From Sulfurospirillum sp. SCADC (GTDB lineage Bacteria; Campylobacterota; Campylobacteria; Campylobacterales; Sulfurospirillaceae): DNA of 64,000 nt. The notes under the pieces are model-generated. The model saw only the letters and a list, made by a program, of their open reading frames with translations, had not been told where the DNA came from and ran no database searches. The stretch spans positions 1-64,000 of the forward strand of contig NZ_JQGK01000010.1 of assembly GCF_000743525.1 (NCBI RefSeq), in the 5' to 3' direction. Positions within the stretch are counted from its first letter, which is position 1, and each line of letters opens with the position of its first letter. The position numbers and the translations under genes are program-made. This document shows positions 12,094 through 23,820 of this stretch, in pieces.

Positions 12094-12130
12094 GTCAATT
12101 ATGACAGATTTACGTCAATCTTGCGTCAAT
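12094..12130 (-). promoter_or_regulatory. Three direct ATTGAC repeats upstream of petABC
   Basis: Read on the minus strand, ATTGAC occurs at 12130-12125, 12119-12114 and 12099-12094, with spacings of 11 and 20 bp. A TGTCA half-site at 12106-12102 faces the last copy. The 11-bp phasing suits an activator or repressor; the copy nearest mnmG overlaps its stop codon. No regulator is named. Confidence 0.4.
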
Positions 12131-13997
12131 TATTTTTTTTATTATGTATTTTAATATATACATGTAAAATATCTAAAGCCGCGGGTGTAATACCGCTGAT
12201 CTCACTGGCAGCAAAGAGTGTGGGAGGGCTGAAGCGTTGTAACTTCTCCACCACTTCGTTACTCAGCCCTGAAATCGAACTAAAATCCATCATCGCAGGA
12301 ATCTTAACGTTGATCATCTCTTTCATCGTATCGATTTGATCTTTTTGCTTCTCAATATAGTTTTTATACTTCGCTTCGATGAGAATTTGCTCTTTTGCAT
12401 CTTCGTTAAATGCGCTGAGCATCGGTGCTAACTTTTCGAGCTTTTCTACGGTAAATTCAGACCTTGCCACGATCTTTTGAAGTGTGACTTTATCGGTGAT
12501 TTTCTCCTCACCAATACTCGCTAAAAAGGCGTTGTTCTCATTGGAAGGCGTGAGCGTCGTCTCTTCAAGGTAGGCAAGTCCTTCATTTAACTGCATCTGT
12601 TTTTTGACCACGTGTTCATGCGTTTGTTCATCGATTAGGCCAATTTTATAGCCATACGGTGTGAGCCTCAAATCAGCATTGTCTTCACGAAGCAGTAAAC
12701 GATACTCCGCGCGCGACGTAAACATACGGTACGGCTCTTTCGTGCCTTTAGTGACCAAATCATCGATCAACACACCGATATACGCTTCATCGCGTCTTAG
12801 AATCAACGGCTCTTCTTCTCGTAAGCTCAATGAGGCATTAATGCCTGCCATCAGCCCTTGCGCCGCCGCTTCTTCATAACCTGTCGTTCCGTTAATCTGA
12901 CCTGCGCAGTACAAACCTGAGACTTTTTTAGTCTCAAGCGTATGCCTAAGCTCGGTTGGATCAACATAGTCGTACTCAATGGCATACCCAAAGCGAACTA
13001 TCTTTGCATTTTCCATTCCTTCAACCGAATGGATCATCCCCAGTTGTGTATCGGTTGGAAGGGAGGTGCTAAAACCATTGATGTAATACTCGGTCGCTTC
13101 ACGTGTGTGGGGCTCAATAAAAAGATGGTGACGCTCTTTGTCACGGAAACGGTTGATCTTATCTTCGATGCTAGGGCAATAACGTGGACCTATGCCGTTG
13201 ATTTGCCCTGTAAACAGAGGGGCACGGTGGAAATTGCTCTCGATGATCGTGTGCGTCTCTTCGTTGGTGTAGGCGATGTAACAAGGGAGTTGAAACGGTT
13301 TAAAGCTTGCGCGATCGGTTCTAAAGCTAAATGGCAGGGGATTCTCATCGCCTGGTTGAAGCTCCATTTTGGAAAAATCAATCGTTTTCGCATCGATGCG
13401 CGCACAGGTTCCTGTTTTAAGGCGTCCCATCATGATGCCCAGTGAACGGATAGAATCAGAGAGCTTGATGGAGGGAAATTCTCCGACACGACCCGATTCG
13501 TGTTTGTACTCGCCAATGTGAATCAGTCCTTTTAAAAAGGTTCCCGTGGTGATGATGATTTTGTGTGCGTGGTAGTGGTTGCCCATCGCCGTAATAACGC
13601 CGGTGACTTTTCCCTCTTCGGTAAGAATTTGCTCGGCAACTTCTTGAGCGACACTGAGATTTTCAGTGTTTAAAATGATGGTTCGCATATAGATGCGGTA
13701 TCTGTCCATATCGATCTGCGCGCGACTGCCTCTGACCGCTGGACCTTTGGAGAGATTGAGCGTGCGAAATTGAATGCCCGTAGCATCGGTTGCGAGTGCC
13801 ATTTGTCCACCAAGTGCGTCGAGTTCTTTGACCAAATGACCTTTGGCGAGTCCTCCAATAGCAGGATTACAACTCGCGGCGCCAATTTGTTCCGCTAAAA
13901 TAGAGATAAGAAGGGTCTTATGCCCAAGCCTTGCGGACGCTAAGGATGCTTCAATGCCTGCGTGTCCACCACCAATTACGATAACGTCATATTTCAT
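12126..13997 (-). CDS. mnmG: tRNA uridine-5-carboxymethylaminomethyl modification enzyme MnmG
   Basis: FAD-dependent enzyme that, with MnmE, modifies U34 of several tRNAs. The FAD site [17 protein letters not shown] is at residues 8-24. Family motifs [26 protein letters not shown] and GYEEAAAQG are visible. Length of 623 residues matches MnmG (GidA). The gene lies on the minus strand just upstream of the pet operon promoter region. mnmE is not in the window. Confidence 0.97.
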
Positions 13998-14117: not shown

Positions 14118-15992
14118 ATGTTTGAAGAGAAGCATTTAGCAAAACTTATTTTTCTAACGCCTATTGTGACCATTGGGCTCTTAACGCTCTTTACACTCTC
14201 TTTTTTCATCTCAATAGAGCGTGCCAATCTGAATGTAGAGAGTCAGGCGTTAGAGCAAAAACTGTTACAACAGCAAAAAACGGTGTTGGTCAATGAAATT
14301 CAAAAAGTATTTCAATACTTTGAATACCACTTGGCAATGATGCACCGTACGATTGATTTGGAGTTAAAAGATCGCGTGGATGATGTGCATATGATGGGGA
14401 TCAATCTCTTTGCGAAAGGCTCGCAGAACAAGTCCTTGCAGGTCTTGCGACAAGAGCTTTTGCTGATGCTCTCTTCTTTACATGTAAGCGGTCATCGAGG
14501 GTACTATTTTGTCTTGGATGCGAAAGGAAATATTCTTTATCCTTTAGAAGAGTTGGGGGATCGCATAGGACTTCAAAGTGCAGTCCATGAGGCTTTAAAA
14601 CAAGAAGGATATGCTACCAGCGAAGTAGGGCGACCAAGGCGTGTGTATGTCAAACCATTAGCGCCTTATGGATGGAGTATTGGGGCGGCAGAGTATCTGG
14701 ATATTGCGACTTCAAGGCTGAAAGATGAGATGATCTCGTGGAGCGAGTCTTTACGGTACGGTGAAGGTGGGTATATGTGGATACACACCACAACCCATAC
14801 GCTTTTAGCGCACCCTTTTAGAGCAGAGAGTATTGGAAAAGATGACACACTGCTCAAAGATCAGTCTGGAAAAATGATCATCCAAACGTTTGTCAAAACA
14901 GCGTTGGAAAAAGAAGAAGGTGGTTTTGTAGAGTATTTTTGGCGTAAACCTTATGCGGAAACTCCGTCTAAAAAAATCTCGTATGTGGCACAGTTTAAGC
15001 CGTGGCATTGGGTGGTTGGGACGGGTGTGTATGGGGATGATGTACAAAAAGAGATTGCTTTGAAAAAAGAAGAGATGAAAGCGAAGATGGATCGCTATAT
15101 CTTTGGTGTGATTGTGATAGCACTTGTCTCACTGCTGTGCGTGGGGTTTCTCTCTTTCTTGGTCACGAAGCAGATTAATCGTGCCCTTGAGAGTTACCGT
15201 GAACGGGTGCGTCATAAAACCGAAGCGCTCAAAGAGTTTAATGCCACACTGCGCTTTAAGATCACCAAAGCTCTCGAAGAGTCAAAGCAAAAAGATATGG
15301 CACTGCTTCAGCAGTCGAGGTTAGCGCAGATGGGTGAGATGCTGAGCATCATCGCTCATCAATGGCGGCAGCCTTTGAGTGAAGTTTCAGGCATTTTTAT
15401 GGAGCTTGAAACCGCTTCAAAATTTGGACAAGCCGATACCAAACTGATCCAAGAGAGTGCCAAAGAAGCGGATAAACTCTTAAGCTATATGTCCCGGACA
15501 ATTGATGATTTTAGGCATTTTTTTAAACCTTCCAAAGAAAAAGAGAGCTTTTGGATTCAAAAGGCGTGTGAGGAGGCATTTAGCTTAGCGCAAGCGGTTT
15601 TGAAAAACTCCCATATTGCTTTACATGTAACGATTTTTGATTCGCCTAAAATTGAAGGATACCCCAATGAATACGCCCAAGTTATTCTCAATTTGATCCT
15701 CAATGCGAAAGATATTTTGATGGAGCGAAAAATAAAGGAGCCGCAGATTTGGGTGGAGATAGGCCGCACACCAGAGGGCAACGCTTTGGTCTGCGTGATG
15801 GACAATGGAGGCGGCATTAACGAAAGCCATCTCAAAATGGTGTTTGAACCCTATTTCTCAACGAAAAAAGCTTCAAAAGGCAGTGGTCTGGGACTTTACA
15901 TGGCAAAAATGATTATTGAGCAAAGTATGGGTGGAAAGATCGAAGTGGAAAATGACGCTTTTGGGGCAAAATTTAGGGTAGAGGTGTCGTGA
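14118..15992 (+). CDS. Cache-domain sensor histidine kinase
   Basis: Membrane sensor with a periplasmic ligand domain. There is a membrane segment at about residues 10-33, then a double-Cache type region (HRGYYFVLDAKGNILYP and a second part with GGYMWIH), then a second membrane segment near 315-335. The cytoplasmic part has the phosphoacceptor motif IAHQWRQPL, N-box NLILNAKD, DNGGGI and GSGLGLYMAK. The gene overlaps the response regulator, and a TRAP transporter operon follows. By position it probably senses the TRAP substrate (inference). Confidence 0.9.
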   Translation: MFEEKHLAKLIFLTPIVTIGLLTLFTLSFFISIERANLNVESQALEQKLLQQQKTVLVNEIQKVFQYFEYHLAMMHRTIDLELKDRVDDVHMMGINLFAKGSQNKSLQVLRQELLLMLSSLHVSGHRGYYFVLDAKGNILYPLEELGDRIGLQSAVHEALKQEGYATSEVGRPRRVYVKPLAPYGWSIGAAEYLDIATSRLKDEMISWSESLRYGEGGYMWIHTTTHTLLAHPFRAESIGKDDTLLKDQSGKMIIQTFVKTALEKEEGGFVEYFWRKPYAETPSKKISYVAQFKPWHWVVGTGVYGDDVQKEIALKKEEMKAKMDRYIFGVIVIALVSLLCVGFLSFLVTKQINRALESYRERVRHKTEALKEFNATLRFKITKALEESKQKDMALLQQSRLAQMGEMLSIIAHQWRQPLSEVSGIFMELETASKFGQADTKLIQESAKEADKLLSYMSRTIDDFRHFFKPSKEKESFWIQKACEEAFSLAQAVLKNSHIALHVTIFDSPKIEGYPNEYAQVILNLILNAKDILMERKIKEPQIWVEIGRTPEGNALVCVMDNGGGINESHLKMVFEPYFSTKKASKGSGLGLYMAKMIIEQSMGGKIEVENDAFGAKFRVEVS

Positions 15993-16669
15993 TGGAAGCA
16001 TCCTTAGAAGCATTAAAGTCTATGAGCGTTTTATGTGTGGAAGATGAGGAGGGCATTCGTGCACGATTGGCAAAAACCCTCTCCTACTATTTTGGAACCG
16101 TCTATGAAGCCCGTCATGGATTGGAAGGGTTAGCGCTTTATGAGGCACACCATCCCGATCTGATCATTAGCGATATTGGGATGAATGGCATGAGCGGCGT
16201 GGAGTTGGTTGCAGCGATTCGCCAAAACGATAAACAAACCCCTATTATTATGCTCACGGCGTACAGTAAAGAGGAGTATTTGATGGAGCTCATTAATCTT
16301 AAGATTGATCATTTCATTCTCAAACCTGCCAATGCGGAGCGCCTTTTAGAAGGGATTACAAAAGCACTGGATGGCAAATTGCTTGGGCGCATCAAACTGG
16401 GGCGTGATCTTTTGTTTTCTCCCTTAGAGCGAAAACTGTTTTTGAACGAGTTTGAAATTAGCCTCAACAAGCGTGAAAAAGATTTTTTACTGTTACTGCT
16501 TCACAATCAGAAAAAAATCACAACCTATGCACAGATCGAAGATACCCTTTGGGATGGAAAAGTCATGAGCAGTGAAGCCCTTAAAACATTTATTAAAGAG
16601 TTGCGTAAAAAGGTAACAATAGAGTTTTTAGAGAATCTCCCACAAGAAGGGTATCGGCTTATTTTTTAA
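15992..16669 (+). CDS. OmpR-family response regulator
   Basis: DNA-binding partner of the kinase. The receiver domain holds acidic residues VEDEE near the N-terminus, phosphoacceptor aspartate in LIISDIGMNGM, threonine/serine in MLTAYS and lysine in ILKPA. The C-terminal part is a winged helix ending EGYRLIF. TGATG overlap with the kinase stop favours the ATG at 15992, although a GTG three bases earlier is possible. It ends 80 bp before dctP, where an 11-bp tandem repeat could be its operator. Confidence 0.9.
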   Translation: MEASLEALKSMSVLCVEDEEGIRARLAKTLSYYFGTVYEARHGLEGLALYEAHHPDLIISDIGMNGMSGVELVAAIRQNDKQTPIIMLTAYSKEEYLMELINLKIDHFILKPANAERLLEGITKALDGKLLGRIKLGRDLLFSPLERKLFLNEFEISLNKREKDFLLLLLHNQKKITTYAQIEDTLWDGKVMSSEALKTFIKELRKKVTIEFLENLPQEGYRLIF

Positions 16670-16682
16670 GCAATGTAGCTCT

Positions 16683-16720
16683 TTTTTCCCCACTTTTTCC
16701 CCACCACACTCTGTTAAGAT
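16683..16720 (+). promoter_or_regulatory. dctP promoter with tandem 11-bp operator-like repeat
   Basis: TTTTTCCCCAC occurs twice head-to-tail at 16683-16693 and 16694-16704, exactly one helical turn apart. It ends ten bases before a -10-like TAAGAT at 16715-16720. OmpR-type regulators commonly bind such direct repeats over the -35. The ribosome binding site AAGGAG lies just before the dctP ATG. Confidence 0.6.
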
Positions 16721-16749
16721 GTGTTCAAAACTTTTTTAAGGAGTGCAGT

Positions 16750-17709
16750 ATGTTACGAAAATTGGTTCTTCTTTCATGTACGGTTGGCGCCTTGATGGCG
16801 GCTACGATTAAAATGGATCTTAACGCCATTTATGGGGCAAACAACGTCCATACAAAAGGTGCTGAACAGTTTGCCGCGTTGGTGGATGAGTACACCAAAG
16901 GGAGTGTGAAAATTACGGTTCATGCGGGAGGTTCCCTCGTCAAAGGTAGTCCGCTTCAAGCGGTCAAAGATGGCACGGTTGCCATGACCGATATGTTTAT
17001 CCCTTTCACGGCAGGTGGCGGTAAAGTGTTTGGCATTTCTGCGTTACCGTTTGTAGCAAATTCGTATGATGATGCGTATAAACTCTACCAAATATCAAAA
17101 CCTGCGTATGAAAAAGCCGCCGCCACATGGAATCAAAAAATGCTCTACGCTGTCTCTTGGCCACCGAGTGGGCTTTACACTAAAAAGCCGATGAACTCTA
17201 AAGCAGATTTTAGTGATCTTAAAACCAGAACTTACGATAAAAACTCGGCTGATTTTATCACCATGGTGGGGGGAAGTTCTGTGGCATTGCCTTGGGGTGA
17301 AGTCTATTCCGCTTTGAGTACGGGTATGGTGAACTCTGTGGTGACATCATCAGCTTCAGGAAAAGATGGAAAATTTTGGGAAGTTTTGAGTGATTTTACG
17401 AAGATCAATTATGCCTATCCATTGCAAGCCGTGACGATCAATTTAGACTACTGGAAAAGCTTAGATAAAGCACAACAAGACGCACTTCTGAAAGCGGCTG
17501 AGACAATTGAAAAAGCGCAATGGGAAGCGAGTAAAACAGAAGATGCTGTAGCATTAAAATTGATCTCCGATAATGGCATTAAGATAAAAGAGGCAAGCCC
17601 TGAGCTTAAAAAAGAGTTGGATGTTGTTGCTCAAAAAATGCTGGATGCGTATCTGAGTGATGCCGATCCAATGATCAAAAAAATCTTTACTGAGTACAAA
17701 AAGCAATGA
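16750..17709 (+). CDS. dctP: TRAP transporter solute-binding protein, DctP family
   Basis: Periplasmic receptor for an organic acid. It has 319 residues with a signal peptide ending near residue 17 (ALMAA). The family core includes LKTRTYDKNS, whose arginine normally binds the substrate carboxylate, and ALPWGEVYSALSTGMV. It opens a tightly overlapping run with dctQ, dctM and pxpABC. The pairing with 5-oxoprolinase suggests 5-oxoproline (pyroglutamate) as ligand, which is inference only. Confidence 0.9.
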   Translation: MLRKLVLLSCTVGALMAATIKMDLNAIYGANNVHTKGAEQFAALVDEYTKGSVKITVHAGGSLVKGSPLQAVKDGTVAMTDMFIPFTAGGGKVFGISALPFVANSYDDAYKLYQISKPAYEKAAATWNQKMLYAVSWPPSGLYTKKPMNSKADFSDLKTRTYDKNSADFITMVGGSSVALPWGEVYSALSTGMVNSVVTSSASGKDGKFWEVLSDFTKINYAYPLQAVTINLDYWKSLDKAQQDALLKAAETIEKAQWEASKTEDAVALKLISDNGIKIKEASPELKKELDVVAQKMLDAYLSDADPMIKKIFTEYKKQ

Positions 17710-18197
17710 GACATCTTTTTATTGAGATAGCACGGAAGCTCTCCCTTGGGGGAGTTTTCGTTGCTTCAATTCTGTTAATTTCTCTTGTAGTTCTCATTTT
17801 GGTGGAGATAACCTTGCGCTATTTTTTTAACACCTCGACGATGCGTGCGGATGAGTACAGTGGGTATCTCTACTTAGCCCTTGTCTGTTTTGGTTTTGGG
17901 CACACGTTTTTACGCGATGGGCATATTCGTATTACCTTTTTGACGGCGAAGTTATCGACTAAAGCCTCTTCATGGGTTGATATGTTTGCAGGTCTTGTGA
18001 GTGTGGGGTTGCTGTTATTTATTTTTTATCGTACGGCATTGCTGACATGGGATTCCTACCAAACTGGCGTTGTGTCTGAGGGTGTATCGGCTACGCCACT
18101 TTTCATACCCCAACTGGCACTACCACTTGGTTTTGCACTGTTTAGTCTTGCTGTGATTGCATTTATACTGCAAAGGATGGGACCTCATGATTGCTGA
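17706..18197 (+). CDS. dctQ: TRAP transporter small permease, DctQ family
   Basis: Small membrane subunit of the TRAP transporter, 163 residues with four membrane segments. The RADEYSGYL and GHTFLRDGHIRI stretches are typical of DctQ. The start codon overlaps the dctP stop (ATGA), and dctM begins inside its end. Confidence 0.9.
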   Translation: MRHLFIEIARKLSLGGVFVASILLISLVVLILVEITLRYFFNTSTMRADEYSGYLYLALVCFGFGHTFLRDGHIRITFLTAKLSTKASSWVDMFAGLVSVGLLLFIFYRTALLTWDSYQTGVVSEGVSATPLFIPQLALPLGFALFSLAVIAFILQRMGPHDC

Positions 18198-19521
18198 TCC
18201 ACTGTTATTATCCGCTGTGCTGATTGGTGTGATGTTTCTCTTTTTACTCTCATCCATTTGGATTGGTGCGTCGCTTTTTCTCACCGGTATTTTTGGAATG
18301 CTTATTTATGATCATCACCTTCCTCCTGCGATTAGCATTATCAACAAGATAGGCAATTTACTGGCGGGTTCTATTTATGACTCTATGAATTCATGGTCGC
18401 TTGCCTCATTGCCTATGTTTATTTTAATGGGTGAGATTTTGCACTACTCCTCTATCTCCAATAAACTTTTTAACGGGTTAGTTCCTTGGCTTAGCAATGT
18501 TCCTGGGCGATTACTGCACATCAATGTCGCAGCTTGTTCCCTCTTTGCCGCAGTTTCTGGCTCATCGGCGGCGACTACGGCAACGGTTGGAAAGATTACA
18601 TTGGATGAATTGCATAAAAGAGGCTATAGTAAATCTCTTGCCCTTGGCTCACTGGCTGGCAGTGGAACGCTAGGTTTTTTAATTCCTCCTAGTATCATTA
18701 TGATTATTTACGGCGTTTTAGCCGACGTCTCCATTGGTCGACTGTTTATCTCAGGCATTATTCCTGGTCTTTTGCTGGCAACGTCGTATTCGCTTTATAT
18801 TATGATGATAGCATTTTTGGATAAACGCGTTGTTCCTGCCGGCAAAGAACATTTCACCTGGGCGCAAAGAGTAGCCTCTCTTAAAGAGCTTTTCCCCGTA
18901 CTCCTCCTCATTACCGTAGTGATTGGCAGTATCTATGCAGGCATCGCGACACCGACGGAAGCAGCGGCACTTGGCGTTTTCTTTTCAATGATCCTTGCGC
19001 TCTATTTTAAAAGCTTTAGTGTTGCTATTTTTAAAATAGCGCTTGCCAATACCATTAAAACCACGGTAATGATCAGCTTCATCATCGCAGGGGCAGGCTT
19101 TTTATCGCAAGTCGTCGGTTTTTTAGGCATTGCGCGTGCTATCAGTGAATTTATCGCTTCTATGGGATTAACGCCTTTGATGCTTATTGTGGTTATAGCG
19201 ATCATGTATATCATTCTTGGCATGATGTTAGATGGCATCTCCATGGTGGTTATGACGCTGCCTATTGTCCTTCCTATTGTCACGTTAGCAGGGTTTGATG
19301 CGCTTTGGTTTGGGATCTTTTTAGTGTTTATGGTCGAGATGGCACAGATCACGCCACCCGTCGGTTTTTCACTTTTTGTCATTCAGAGCATCTCTGGTGA
19401 AAAAATAGGCTTTATTATTCGAGCAACAATTCCCTTTTTCCTTATAATGGTTTTAATTACGGCTATGGTAACATTGTTCCCAGAAATAGTCTTTTATTTA
19501 CCCAATAGGATGATCGGATGA
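18187..19521 (+). CDS. dctM: TRAP transporter large permease, DctM family
   Basis: Sodium-coupled large membrane subunit with about twelve segments. Motifs GSSAATTATVGKI, GTLGFLIPPSI, IATPTEAAALG and ITPPVGFSLFV are characteristic of DctM. The ATG at 18187 is preferred to an in-frame one ten codons upstream because it follows AAGGATGGG and starts directly before the first membrane segment. This gives 444 residues. It overlaps dctQ and pxpA. Confidence 0.93.
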   Translation: MIADPLLLSAVLIGVMFLFLLSSIWIGASLFLTGIFGMLIYDHHLPPAISIINKIGNLLAGSIYDSMNSWSLASLPMFILMGEILHYSSISNKLFNGLVPWLSNVPGRLLHINVAACSLFAAVSGSSAATTATVGKITLDELHKRGYSKSLALGSLAGSGTLGFLIPPSIIMIIYGVLADVSIGRLFISGIIPGLLLATSYSLYIMMIAFLDKRVVPAGKEHFTWAQRVASLKELFPVLLLITVVIGSIYAGIATPTEAAALGVFFSMILALYFKSFSVAIFKIALANTIKTTVMISFIIAGAGFLSQVVGFLGIARAISEFIASMGLTPLMLIVVIAIMYIILGMMLDGISMVVMTLPIVLPIVTLAGFDALWFGIFLVFMVEMAQITPPVGFSLFVIQSISGEKIGFIIRATIPFFLIMVLITAMVTLFPEIVFYLPNRMIG

Positions 19522-20249
19522 GTATAAAATTAAACTGTGATGCGGGTGAGAGTTTTGGCTCTTGGAAAATGGGGCTTGATGAGGCGATAATGCCTTTTGT
19601 GGATATGGCAAATTTTGCGTGTGGGTTTCATGCGGGCGATCCTTTGATTATGGATCGTTCTATTAAGTTGGCGCTGAAACATGGCGTGAGTATTGGTGCG
19701 CACCCTGCGTATCCTGATTTAATGGGATTTGGTAGACGAAGCATGGTTTGCTCTTTGGATGAAATCGAAGCGATGGTGATTTACCAAATTGGAGCCCTTC
19801 AAGGCTTCGTCACTGCCAATGGCGCAACACTTTCGTATGTCAAACCGCATGGCGGACTGTACAACGATATGATGAAAGATGAGCGCATTTTTAAAGCCGT
19901 CGCAACAGCCGTAGCGCGGGTAAATCCAAAACTAAAACTGATGATTCTCTCGATGGTGGATACTTCCAAGCAAGAAATGATTGCTAAAGAGCTTGGTTTA
20001 GAGCTGATCTATGAAGTCTTTGCCGATCGTGCGTACGATGAGAGTGGTTTGTTGGTGCCACGTACGCAAAAAGGTGCTGTGTTACACGATGTTCAAGCGG
20101 TGATCGAGCGGTTGAAATTGCTTCAAAAAGAGGGGCTTTTAGAGACTATTACTGGCAAAAGAATCGCTCTGAGAGCCGATACCTTATGTGTTCATGGCGA
20201 CAATGAAGCTGCGGTTGCCATGGTAGAAACCCTTAGGAAAAGCATGTGA
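19518..20249 (+). CDS. pxpA: 5-oxoprolinase subunit A, LamB/YcsF family
   Basis: Subunit of the ATP-dependent PxpABC 5-oxoprolinase, which opens 5-oxoproline to glutamate. The family signatures LNCDAGESFG, ANFACGFHAGDP, GAHPAYPD and VKPHGGLYN are visible in 243 residues. ATGA overlap with dctM places it in the transporter operon. Confidence 0.95.
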   Translation: MSIKLNCDAGESFGSWKMGLDEAIMPFVDMANFACGFHAGDPLIMDRSIKLALKHGVSIGAHPAYPDLMGFGRRSMVCSLDEIEAMVIYQIGALQGFVTANGATLSYVKPHGGLYNDMMKDERIFKAVATAVARVNPKLKLMILSMVDTSKQEMIAKELGLELIYEVFADRAYDESGLLVPRTQKGAVLHDVQAVIERLKLLQKEGLLETITGKRIALRADTLCVHGDNEAAVAMVETLRKSM

Positions 20250-20929
20250 GTAGACGTTATGCCATTGCCTCAGAATCGTCCGTTATTGTCTATTTTGGAA
20301 CCTCCATCGATCCTGTGATCTCCCAAGAGGTGCAAAAAGCCTATCATGCGCTCAAAGCCAAGGCTCAGGAGAGTTTTTACGAGATCATTCCTTCTTACGC
20401 ATCATTGATGGTCAGTTACGATGTGATGCGTTTTAGCTTTGATGCGGTGTGTGAGATCATCGAAAACAGCATTCATCAAGCAGAATCCATCGCGGTGAGT
20501 GAGCCTAAAATTATCACGATTCCAGTCTATTATGGACGCGAGGTTGGGCTTGATTTGGAGCTATTGGCGCAGGAGAAAAACCTCAGTGCGGAGGAGATTA
20601 TCGCTTTACATGTAAACGAGGTTTACACAGTCTATGCGATTGGGTTTGCCCCAGGCTTTGCCTATTTGGGTGAGATCGACGCGCGTTTAGCCACGTCTCG
20701 TTTAGCGAGTCCGAGAAAGGCAGTTCCCAAAGGCAGTGTCTCCATTGCTGATCGCCAAACCGCGGTGTATCCTACCCAAAGTCCAGGAGGCTGGAAAGTG
20801 CTGGGGCGAACACCCACCGCGATGTTTGATGCTTCGTATGATGGGCTTTCCCTTTTACATGTAGGCGATCACGTGCGTTATCAATCCATCTCCAAAGAGG
20901 AGTTTTTAAGCTTAGGAGGTGAGCTGTGA
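20246..20929 (+). CDS. pxpB: 5-oxoprolinase subunit B, KipI-like
   Basis: Second 5-oxoprolinase subunit, 227 residues. Family features include the N-terminal SESSVIVYFG, the central IPVYYG, GFAPGFAYLG and SPGGWKVLGRTP. GTG start overlaps pxpA. PxpB and PxpC form the ATP-binding, carboxyltransferase-like half of the enzyme in characterised bacteria. In Bacillus the homologous pair KipI/KipA was first studied in sporulation. Confidence 0.95.
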   Translation: MSRRYAIASESSVIVYFGTSIDPVISQEVQKAYHALKAKAQESFYEIIPSYASLMVSYDVMRFSFDAVCEIIENSIHQAESIAVSEPKIITIPVYYGREVGLDLELLAQEKNLSAEEIIALHVNEVYTVYAIGFAPGFAYLGEIDARLATSRLASPRKAVPKGSVSIADRQTAVYPTQSPGGWKVLGRTPTAMFDASYDGLSLLHVGDHVRYQSISKEEFLSLGGEL

Positions 20930-21855
20930 ACGGTTTTATCGTTGAAAACGGTGGACTTCAAAGCTCGATTCAAGATGCAGGGCGCAGAGGTTTGAGTGAC
21001 ATTGGCTTGACGCAAAGTGGTGCGATGGATGAGATGGCGTTTGGGTATGCGAATTTTCTTGTGGGCAATGCGTTTAACACACCTGCCATTGAGATCGCCA
21101 TGGGCGGTGCTTCGTTTAAAGCCAGAAGCGAGATGTGCATCGCTATTTGTGGGGCTAATATGCAGCCTACCTGTAACGGCCACAGCATCGCTTTGTGGCA
21201 GACCCATCTGCTGAGGCGTGGGGATGTGATTGCCTTTGATTTTGCCAACGAAGGGCAATTTGCCTACATCGCCGTTGCGGGAGGATTTCAAACGCCTTTT
21301 GCGTATGGAAGCTATTCTACCAGTTTGAAAGAGGGGCTAGGTGGGCTTGAGGGGCGTAAGCTCAAAACGGGAGATCTGTTGCACACTTTGGGAAATAGGT
21401 GTCCTATGGACAGACGAAAACTGGAGCGAAAATTTATCCCTAAATACCCTGATTCCATTACCGTGCGTCTGGTCAAAGGCTACCAAGAAGCGATGTTCGA
21501 TACCAAAGCACAAGAGACATTTTTCAACAGCACTTACACGTTTAAAGGCGAGGGTGATCGCATGGGATACCGTCTCAGTGGCGAAAAAGTTGTGCCTTCC
21601 TCTACAGGCATTCTCTCTGAGCCTATCTGTTATGGTGCGGTGCAAGTGCCCAGTCATGGCGAACCGATTGTGCTCTTAAAAGAGCGACAAACGATTGGTG
21701 GGTATCCTAAAATGGGTTCTATTATCGCCGTGGACTGTTTTAAACTTGCCCAACTCAAAGCAGGTGGAAAAGTCAAATTTAAAGAGGTAAGTTTGAAAGA
21801 GGCGCAAAGGGCAACAAGAGCTTTTTACATCTTTTTTAAAGAGCAAGAAGCGTAA
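20926..21855 (+). CDS. pxpC: 5-oxoprolinase subunit C, KipA-like biotin-dependent carboxyltransferase domain
   Basis: Third 5-oxoprolinase subunit, 309 residues. The N-terminal SIQDAGRRGLSDIGLTQSGAMD and the C-terminal GYPKMGSII regions are the family hallmarks. GTG start overlaps pxpB. It ends the TRAP/Pxp operon at a symmetric hairpin shared with the convergent chemoreceptor gene. Confidence 0.95.
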   Translation: MNGFIVENGGLQSSIQDAGRRGLSDIGLTQSGAMDEMAFGYANFLVGNAFNTPAIEIAMGGASFKARSEMCIAICGANMQPTCNGHSIALWQTHLLRRGDVIAFDFANEGQFAYIAVAGGFQTPFAYGSYSTSLKEGLGGLEGRKLKTGDLLHTLGNRCPMDRRKLERKFIPKYPDSITVRLVKGYQEAMFDTKAQETFFNSTYTFKGEGDRMGYRLSGEKVVPSSTGILSEPICYGAVQVPSHGEPIVLLKERQTIGGYPKMGSIIAVDCFKLAQLKAGGKVKFKEVSLKEAQRATRAFYIFFKEQEA

Positions 21856-21865
21856 TGCTTCTTGC
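21843..21865. terminator. Bidirectional terminator between pxpC and the chemoreceptor gene
   Basis: GCAAGAAGC pairs with GCTTCTTGC (9 bp, GTAAT loop) between two convergent genes, covering the pxpC stop. On the minus strand it is followed by T-rich sequence. Confidence 0.65.
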
Positions 21866-21867
21866 CA

Positions 21868-23820
21868 TTAGGTTCTAAAATTTCCTAAAACGTTGTTGAG
21901 TTTTTCGGTGAGGGCACTGAGATGTTCGGTCGCACTGCTGACCTCTTCCATGCTGCGTGTGTTGCTAACGGTAATCGTGTTGATCTCTTCGATTTTAATG
22001 ACAATATCATCGATTTTCTTGCCCGTGTTAATGTAATCGTGCACGGTATTTTCACTTGAAACGGTTGCATTGTCCATAATCACGGCTGTTTCGTGGATGT
22101 TTTTTTCCACTTCCGTTGCAATCTTGGTTAGATTTTCCATGCTTTGTGAATTGATCTTCATGTGATCACTGGCGTCATTAATCGCTTGGACAATGACATT
22201 GATCGTCGCGTTAATTTCTGTCAGGCTTTTTTGCGTGCGCTCGGCTAAGTTGCGGACTTCATCGGCAACAACGGCAAAACCTCTTCCATGTTCACCGGCA
22301 CGTGCGGCTTCAATGGCGGCATTGAGGGCGAGTAAATTGGTTTGATCGGCAATGTCGGAGATAACGCTCAACACCCCTTTGACTTGGTCGGCATCATTGC
22401 TCAGTTGTAAAATTTTATGTGCCAGTTCCACTTCCGTGCTTGCACTGGATTCTACCTGATTGGCAAGTTTTAAGATCTGATTTTTGGCATTGGTCAGCTT
22501 GGCATGCGCTTCGGCGATCTCAACTTCAGACTGTTTCGCCTTTTGCAAGGAGAGGGAGAGCTCTTCTTTGATGGTGCGTGACATGTCATTCGTTGCATTG
22601 ACGATCAACGAAGTCTTTTCTGCACGTTTTCCTACTTCAAGGGCGGTGGAGCTAAGCTCATTGGCAACGGAGGCATTCTCATTACTCGAAGATTTTGCGA
22701 TGCTCACGGTGTTTCTCACTTTATCGATGAAAAGGTTAAAGGCAATGGAAGCTAGACCTATTTCATCACCACTTTTGATCTCCATTTTTTTGGTGAGATC
22801 GCCATCGCCACTGGAGAGGTTCTCAGCACGCATCTTAAGCTCTTTGACAGGGTCAATCACCGATTTTTTAAGTGTAATAACCAGCATCGCCATAACCAGT
22901 ATCGTAATGATGGACATCGTTATAATGAGTTTAATGACAGCCGATTGCGCTTCATGAACAACCGCTTTGACTGCTGTGATCTTTTTAGCGATTAAGACTT
23001 CGCCTGCTTTGCTTCCATCGAAGGCTTTTAGTTCATCTCGAACCACAAAGTAAGAGGGGGTAAAGAAACGACTCCCTTGGGTGGTGAGATCAAGATCTTT
23101 GATCTCTTCAAAGAGTTTCATGTCGGTGATCTCTTTTTTTTGTGAAAGGGCTGTATCTTTGGCAAGCAGTGCATCTTTAGCCGTTGCGCTGAGATTGAGC
23201 TGTTTTTTCTCGGTCAAAAAAAGCACGCTCGCCCCAATATCGTCTTTGGCGTTTTGAACCGCGGCATCAAAGGTGTCGATAAACTCGACTGAACCCAAGT
23301 ATTCGCTATCTTTAACGATAGGCGCAACGCCTCGCAACGACATGCCTGCAACGCCCATTTCGATAGCGGTGAGTGGCTGTTTGGTCTCTTTGACTTTTTT
23401 GATGGTATGACGAAAACCAGAGAGATCATCGCCAAATTTTTTAGGCATCCACTCTCTGAGAAAACTTTTGATGTCGTGTGTGTGAATGTGAATCTGCGCC
23501 TCTTTAAAATCGGTCTTCTCTTTGTAGAGTTTGGTCAGCTCTGCTAAGCCTTTGATGGCAATGTCACGGTCCTTGTTGAGAAGCGCTTCGATGACGTAAT
23601 AATTAGACGCAATCGTAATCGCGTTGGTCAGTGCAACGTCGTATTGAGTTTCGAGTTGGTTTTTGACATAGACACTCAGCTCTCCTTGCTCTTTAGCATA
23701 CACATCTTTCTCGATGCCTTGAATGCTTAGATAGGAGGTAAAAAGTATGAGGATAAGCCCAATCAAGAGCCCTCCAAAGAGAGGAATGTAAATCTTTTGC
23801 GCAATGGTCCACTTCTTCAT
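21868..23820 (-). CDS. Methyl-accepting chemotaxis protein
   Basis: Membrane chemoreceptor of 650 residues. One membrane segment is at about residues 12-32, followed by a periplasmic sensor of Cache type of roughly 250 residues, a second segment near 293-315 and a HAMP domain. The cytoplasmic signalling tip reads [24 protein letters not shown] in overlapping parts, with the [13 protein letters not shown] continuation. Ligand unknown. It is convergent with the pxp operon. Confidence 0.93.

Follow-up and report, generated by a model that had tools for sequence, protein, structure and literature searches.

Which acid does a run of eight co-directional genes at positions 14,118 to 21,855 of Sulfurospirillum sp. 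SCADC contig NZ_JQGK01000010.1 (GCF_000743525.1) take up, and to which signal does it answer? An earlier note on the 64,000-nucleotide stretch analysed here (the window) had read them as a Cache-domain kinase, its regulator, a tripartite ATP-independent periplasmic (TRAP) transporter DctPQM and the oxoprolinase PxpABC, and had proposed that they sense, import and degrade 5-oxoproline (pyroglutamate), the cyclised form of glutamate. Open reading frames and Pfam matches above cut-off confirm all eight genes at their places, the kinase matching dCache_2 and HATPase_c (Table 1), and the unit is very probably a regulated scavenging operon for 5-oxoproline, comprising sensing, import and breakdown. 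This reading draws on gene content, receptor subfamily, linkage, presence and absence, a recombination tract and the conservation of a box before dctP; from these we infer the ligand, transport, enzyme activity, box binding and signal. DctP would capture 5-oxoproline in the periplasm, DctQM would bring it into the cell, and PxpABC, using ATP, would convert it to glutamate; the kinase, whose signal is probably 5-oxoproline or a small carboxylate related to it, would phosphorylate the OmpR-type regulator, and this would switch on dctPQM-pxpABC by binding a tandem CYCAC-N6-CYCAC box that would take the place of the -35 element in the dctP promoter.

The receptor points most directly to the substrate. 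Among PDB entries, the best phmmer matches of DctP are 2pfz (DctP6; 5e-45), 6wgm (3.6e-41) and 2pfy (DctP7; 3.5e-32), the next standing at 1.2e-22, and the structure titles of all three name pyroglutamate binding. The same three lead when an AlphaFold model of DctP (built from 27 sequences; predicted local distance difference test score 85.0, predicted template modelling score 0.83) is compared by fold, both in VIA-align (Z 37.2 for 2pfz, 37.1 for 6wgm and 36.8 for 2pfy; next 32.8) and in Foldseek. Residues W137, P138 and R160 are invariant across 36 aligned sequences and aligned with 2pfz, 6wgm and 2pfy; the passages on TRAP receptor sites in PMC4646407 and PMC11574862 describe an arginine that holds the carboxylate and a Trp or Tyr in the site. 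W137 may contact the ligand. The closest DctP among the genome contigs searched comes from a metagenome-assembled genome (MAG) labelled Proteobacteria (97% identical), followed by Sulfurospirillum and Sulfurospirillaceae MAGs (88-90%). The source genome (2.66 Mb, 99.99% complete) has three DctP matches and one pxpA; the two other DctPs, which are 20-21% identical to this one, lack the W-P pair and lie on contigs other than that of pxpA, were rejected as parts of the unit.

The genes around dctP lead to the same compound. With five weak matches from Escherichia set aside from all counts (L064-L068, 40% identical over 57 residues), the related loci number 60, of which 50 extend at least 2.7 kb past dctP; Pxp genes follow downstream in 44 of the 50, with all three subunits in 37; the gene order is thus beyond chance. 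Seven loci have a partial set, either on short contigs (L012, L015, L019, L029) or as a PxpB-like gene only (L042, L049, L051). Six have no Pxp gene downstream (L030, L050, L056, L058, L060, L063): in L063 pxpABC lies just upstream of the transporter, as it does in L057, outside the 50, and in the Desulfovibrio-type loci L056, L058 and L060 dctPQM is divergent from Hydantoinase_A genes, accompanied by Hydantoinase_B in L056 and L060, the two scanned for it; a scan of the source genome for Hydantoinase_B gave no match. Genome searches, several of them in MAGs, found pxpA elsewhere in the genomes of L042, L049, L050, L051 and L052, and did not find it for L030, L056, L058 and L060. Transporter, oxoprolinase, kinase and regulator also cluster in named strains such as Poseidonibacter ostreae SJOD-M-5 (L033) and, with extra genes intervening, Sulfurospirillum arcachonense DSM 9755 (L018).

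The survey of dctP-pxpA neighbourhoods that the earlier note had called for gives the same picture at family level. In a sample of 44 genomes of the family, this DctP type is sharply delimited (at least 66% identical, all others at most 30%, plus a contig-end fragment in G001), and in all 20 cases in which the contig continues, pxpA is no more than 5 kb away (in G001, G004 and G009, set aside, the contig ends first); among the dctP genes of other types listed in the 44 genomes, none lies within 10 kb of pxpA and one lies at 19 kb. Of ten plasmid relatives picked from 30 listed (542 records found), nine are annotated (31-37% identical), and PxpA/B/C or HyuA/B genes occur within 7 kb in six of the nine. 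PxpABC and HyuAB are unrelated enzyme families that have 5-oxoproline as their common known substrate, and the occurrence of one receptor type beside both is the strongest contextual argument. Since receptor subfamily, pxpABC linkage and the replacement of pxpABC by HyuAB-type genes are three partly independent lines, 5-oxoproline is well supported as the substrate of DctP, and the proposal that this TRAP system imports it is strengthened accordingly.

Several observations weigh against this assignment: the lone PxpB-like gene of L042, L049 and L051 directly after dctM; the absence of both Pxp and HyuAB genes from the available DNA after dctM in L030 and L050; and the three annotated distant relatives (L110, L111, L115) with no oxoprolinase gene annotated within 7 kb. 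On the enzyme side, the LamB_YcsF, CT_C_D and CT_A_B subunits are encoded together, as expected for PxpABC; PxpA passes NF003816 with 341.6 bits (cut-off 213), a subfamily cut-off, and misses the strict NCBIfam equivalog cut-off, and PxpC, with 224.5 bits, falls below the equivalog cut-off of 500 for PxpC_5OPro.

Individual loci carry further genes within or beside the cluster. On the S. arcachonense contig of L018, regulator and dctP are separated by a gene on the other strand (L088:5504-6622), a member of the ATP:guanido phosphotransferase (arginine/creatine kinase) family. A MAG labelled Spirochaetota, the dctP of which looks campylobacterotal (66% identical), has a KAP NTPase gene separating dctM from pxpA (L053:5040-7031). 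Arcobacter-type loci have an extra pxpA upstream of the kinase (L016, L026) or an extra pxpB-pxpC copy upstream of the unit (L032:3-1516).

Control of the operon would be exerted in the spacer before dctP. All eight loci of the genus have there CCCCACTTTTTCCCCAC or a variant differing in one or two bases, with the repeats 11 bases apart and a -10-like element following; TGTTA occurs at the position of this element in all eight as aligned. The exact 17-base box of the window occurs once in its own genome, and TAAGAT follows it after 10 bases, so that the box would replace the -35 element; TAAGAT is absent from the output of the promoter scan. The pho box, recognised by the OmpR/PhoB-type regulator PhoB, likewise consists of tandem repeats with an 11-bp period that replace the -35 element; the layout before dctP is PhoB-like, and the two sequences differ. 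Generalised to CYCAC-N6-CYCAC and counted at 9 or more matches of 10, the box is present in 35 of the 38 loci that have kinase, regulator or both, mostly 54-68 bases before dctP (105 in L059; measured from inside the gene in L025). Of the loci with neither, 3 of 20 have it (3 of 15 once five Desulfobacterota-type loci are excluded), and of shuffles 0.7%. The Fisher values of 5e-9 (3/20) and 6e-7 (3/15), or 3e-8 and 2e-6 with L035 counted as kinase-negative, are overstated, because the loci, which also supplied the pattern, are related to one another. The count leaves out L012, L029 and L034, which have too little DNA before dctP, and takes L032 as kinase-positive on a kinase fragment at the contig end; the genome-wide check of kinase absence covered the 15 loci that are not of Desulfobacterota type.

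In the genus, no box was found ahead of pxpA in the 16 genomes that lack kinase, regulator and transporter (G030 was scored in part), and none ahead of the kinase gene in the eight that have them; at two mismatches, the search for further copies was uninformative (two matches, versus two for the reversed pattern). Three points count against a link between box and regulator: the box is present without kinase or regulator in L037, L039 and L040 (all MAGs), three loci with kinase or regulator score only 7-8 of 10, and the pattern was derived from the loci later counted, among which related MAGs are not independent. On balance, the conservation pattern suggests that the CYCAC-N6-CYCAC repeat is probably the binding box of the OmpR-type regulator.

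The kinase co-occurs with the receptor. Of the 44 family genomes, 18 have an orthologue at least 48% identical, always on the same contig as a dctP of this type; these are 18 of 23 genomes with this dctP and 0 of 21 without; two further matches reach 44% (G001, G010). More widely, kinase and regulator lie within 3 kb in 30 of the 46 related loci having at least 2.6 kb before dctP. This co-occurrence with dctP, together with the box before dctP, makes it plausible that the kinase senses 5-oxoproline directly. The import and breakdown assignment could also be right while kinase and regulator sense another carboxylate or a general nutrient signal, a possibility that we rate as appreciable, though the less probable one. 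In its favour, a kinase-regulator pair also adjoins another TRAP operon of the source genome (L090), no kinase orthologue was found in five of the 23 dctP-bearing family genomes (G003, G004, G006, G009, G010), and the sensor architecture varies while DctP is conserved: the sensor is a double-Cache domain in the genus, elsewhere the match begins only near residue 195, with the membrane-proximal Cache module, and this membrane-proximal half resembles the chemoreceptor Cache sensors 4k08 and 5g4y. The signal may thus differ between families, and in Malaciobacter halophilus DSM 18005 (L035:1-1494) regulator and box occur, yet the 1.5 kb preceding the regulator gave no match to the kinase; both points tell against direct sensing of 5-oxoproline. 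What keeps this alternative behind is that, in the 44 genomes, the kinase orthologues are found only with this dctP type, and that the box occurs mainly where kinase or regulator does.

Across the genus, sensing and import genes form an optional block. In 24 of 24 genomes pxpABC is located between gidA and a dCache_3 chemoreceptor, and kinase-regulator-dctPQM is present in eight of them (G000, G017, G018, G024, G028, G029, G032, G033). The remaining 16 have gidA and pxpA as direct divergent neighbours (in G030 the junction spans two contig ends and is partly N). On the gidA tree this distribution requires four changes, two of them forced by well-supported branches. The stretch from about 14.5 kb to about 19.5 kb of the window has been exchanged between species, because the identity of the G028 block to those of G000, G017 and G018 (80-87% at third positions of shared residues) far exceeds that of the flanks (gidA 59%, pxpABC 57-58%, chemoreceptor 55-56%), with edges in sliding identity at about 14.5 kb, inside the kinase, and about 19.5 kb, at the dctM/pxpA junction; in the remaining 25 genome pairs the gap between gidA and block is at most 9 points. 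As the left edge falls within the kinase gene, the pattern suggests that an existing copy of the block was replaced in G028, and a simple recent insertion of the whole block there was rejected on the same ground.

In the block-less genomes G021 and G025 the bases before pxpA still match the kinase promoter of the window (0 of 200 shuffles equally good), a remnant of the kind expected from deletion of the block; the trace is weaker elsewhere (11-14 of 200 shuffles in G012, G019 and G030, more in the other 11). The gidA-pxpA junction of block-less G034 (L082) holds an element of 267 bases that resembles a small non-autonomous transposon, its inverted ends being perfect over at least 32 bases. 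PxpABC, core in the genus, could act alone in disposing of 5-oxoproline that arises inside the cell, and kinase-regulator-dctPQM would be an optional block at the gidA-pxpA junction, subject to loss, gain or exchange. Whether the block is an exchangeable sense-and-import cassette with its own box, repeatedly lost or exchanged at gidA-pxpA and turning a core disposal enzyme into a food pathway, we regard as evenly balanced; if it is, nature has provided in this genus a comparison of species with and without TRAP uptake of 5-oxoproline. The chemoreceptor was rejected as a member of the unit, since it adjoins pxpC also in genomes without transporter, and is treated as a flank; being kept beside pxpC throughout the genus, it could have a ligand related to that of the unit.

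A further reading, in which the unit serves mainly D-glutamate or 5-oxo-D-proline derived from the cell wall, appears improbable: DctP would take the D form or D-glutamate, D-glutamate cyclase would supply the lactam, and PxpABC would open it. Consistent with this, L010 has D-Glu_cyclase (PF07286) and GLUCM-like_C (PF14336) genes between dctM and pxpA, the scan of L087 also gave PF07286, open reading frames with similar starts stand at this place in L088, L101 and L102 (judged by the starts alone), and a D-glutamate cyclase gene stands beside a TRAP dctP in L112; the source genome has a PF07286/PF14336 pair on C4, unlinked to the unit. The cluster is, however, without cyclase in all eight block-bearing genomes of the genus, and the solved members of the receptor subfamily are by title pyroglutamate-binding, whichever the chirality. 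Cyclase-type genes between dctM and pxpA occur in one sister lineage of five genomes (L010, L087, L088, L101, L102); the pair of the source genome (C4:22498-24188; L124:6499-8189) is divergent, beside thioredoxin and KAP NTPase genes. That the TRAP system serves another small carboxylate, a C4-dicarboxylate or monocarboxylate, with pxpABC adjacent for historical reasons, is very unlikely. In its favour are the wide range of acids covered by the DctP family, the likeness of the kinase sensor to Cache domains of chemoreceptors, and the 16 of 24 genomes of the genus in which pxpABC stands without the transporter. Against it, the three nearest structures are the pyroglutamate ones, the linkage is seen in more than one family and with oxoprolinases of two unrelated types, and the two other DctPs of the genome are not near pxpA.

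The preferred reading, a scavenging operon for 5-oxoproline, extends what is known from other bacteria. The portions of PMC13274462 concerned report that 5-oxoproline arises spontaneously from glutamate and glutamine; there and in the corresponding part of PMC11668362, Bordetella TRAP receptors are reported to bind it (dissociation constant 0.3 uM for DctP7), with an oxoprolinase gene nearby, and the relevant parts of PMC12344293 and PMC5812351 agree on these receptors. The earlier note had called a TRAP transporter for this compound a specific, testable assignment; it is not a new one, Bordetella DctP6 and DctP7, like 6wgm, being already titled as pyroglutamate-binding. The B. pertussis proteins (2pfz, 2pfy) are the nearest receptor subfamily in both sequence and fold; the enzyme near them is of eukaryotic type, and 5-oxoproline utilisation is described as not demonstrated in the Bordetella passages of PMC13274462, whereas in the Sulfurospirillum unit the PxpABC genes belong to a single operon of overlapping genes that also includes kinase and regulator. 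The pxpTABC/PxpR system of Corynebacterium glutamicum, as described in PMC13274462, likewise joins 5-oxoproline uptake, a PxpABC operon and a dedicated regulator, but with an APC-superfamily transporter and a GntR-type regulator in place of a TRAP transporter and a two-component system. The HyuAB-TRAP clusters share a related receptor (49-52% identical in L056, L058 and L060, 36% in L109) and ATP-dependent oxoprolinase/hydantoinase family genes, but the enzyme family is unrelated and no kinase stands beside dctP (in L056 a weak regulator match lies 5.6 kb away). Among the papers listed in searches of the open-licence PubMed Central literature, none was seen to describe a TRAP-PxpABC unit with a two-component system. 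The substrate class is already known; what appears new is the TRAP-PxpABC operon with a two-component system, its box, and its pattern of presence and absence. With all parts from receptor to regulator gathered in one cluster, and with sister genomes that lack the sensing and import genes alone, the use of 5-oxoproline through a TRAP system can be tested directly, and so can the proposal that PxpABC by itself is a repair enzyme.

Table 1. Features of the unit and its flanks, in window coordinates.
Feature	Position	Strand	Basis
gidA/mnmG, divergent left flank, outside unit	12126-13997	-	TIGR00136
Sensor histidine kinase, 624 aa	14118-15992	+	Pfam dCache_2 (residues 37-309) and HATPase_c, above cut-off
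OmpR/PhoB-type response regulator, 226 aa	15989-16669	+	Pfam Response_reg and Trans_reg_C, above cut-off
Candidate regulator box, tandem repeat CCCCACTTTTTCCCCAC, 11-bp period	16688-16704	+	conserved repeat
-10-like TAAGAT, 10 bases after box	16715-16720	+	read from sequence
dctP, 5-oxoproline-type TRAP substrate-binding protein	16750-17709	+	Pfam DctP (PF03480), above cut-off
dctQ, small permease subunit	17706-18197	+	Pfam DctQ (PF04290), above cut-off
dctM, large permease subunit	18187 (ATG)-19521	+	Pfam DctM (PF06808) and TIGR00786, both above cut-off
pxpA (LamB/YcsF), 5-oxoprolinase subunit	19518-20249	+	Pfam LamB_YcsF; NF003816 (subfamily)
pxpB	20246-20929	+	Pfam CT_C_D; TIGR00370, 169 bits (cut-off 145.55)
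pxpC	20926-21855	+	Pfam CT_A_B; TIGR00724 (domain), above cut-off
9-bp perfect inverted repeat GCAAGAAGC/GCTTCTTGC spanning pxpC stop	21843-21865	.	read from sequence
dCache_3 chemoreceptor (methyl-accepting chemotaxis protein, MCP), convergent right flank	21868-23820	-	profile match and position beside pxpC

The genes are tightly packed. The regulator, with receiver and winged-helix output domains, overlaps its partner kinase by GTGA, and an 80-base spacer separates it from dctP; DctPQM is complete, with receptor, small and large permease subunits. The ATGA or GTGA overlaps claimed from dctP to pxpC hold at dctP/dctQ and dctM/pxpA (ATGA) and at pxpA/pxpB and pxpB/pxpC (GTGA), and fail at dctQ/dctM, which overlap by 11 bases counted from ATG 18187; the layout had also been called fused, but genes overlap and none are fused. 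The promoter and terminator scans gave no clear excess over shuffles (15 versus 14.3; 11 versus 8.5), and the inverted repeat across the pxpC stop is absent from the output of the terminator scan; by its position it is a possible shared terminator of the convergent pxpC and MCP genes. The dctM frame is open upstream as far as TTG 18157.

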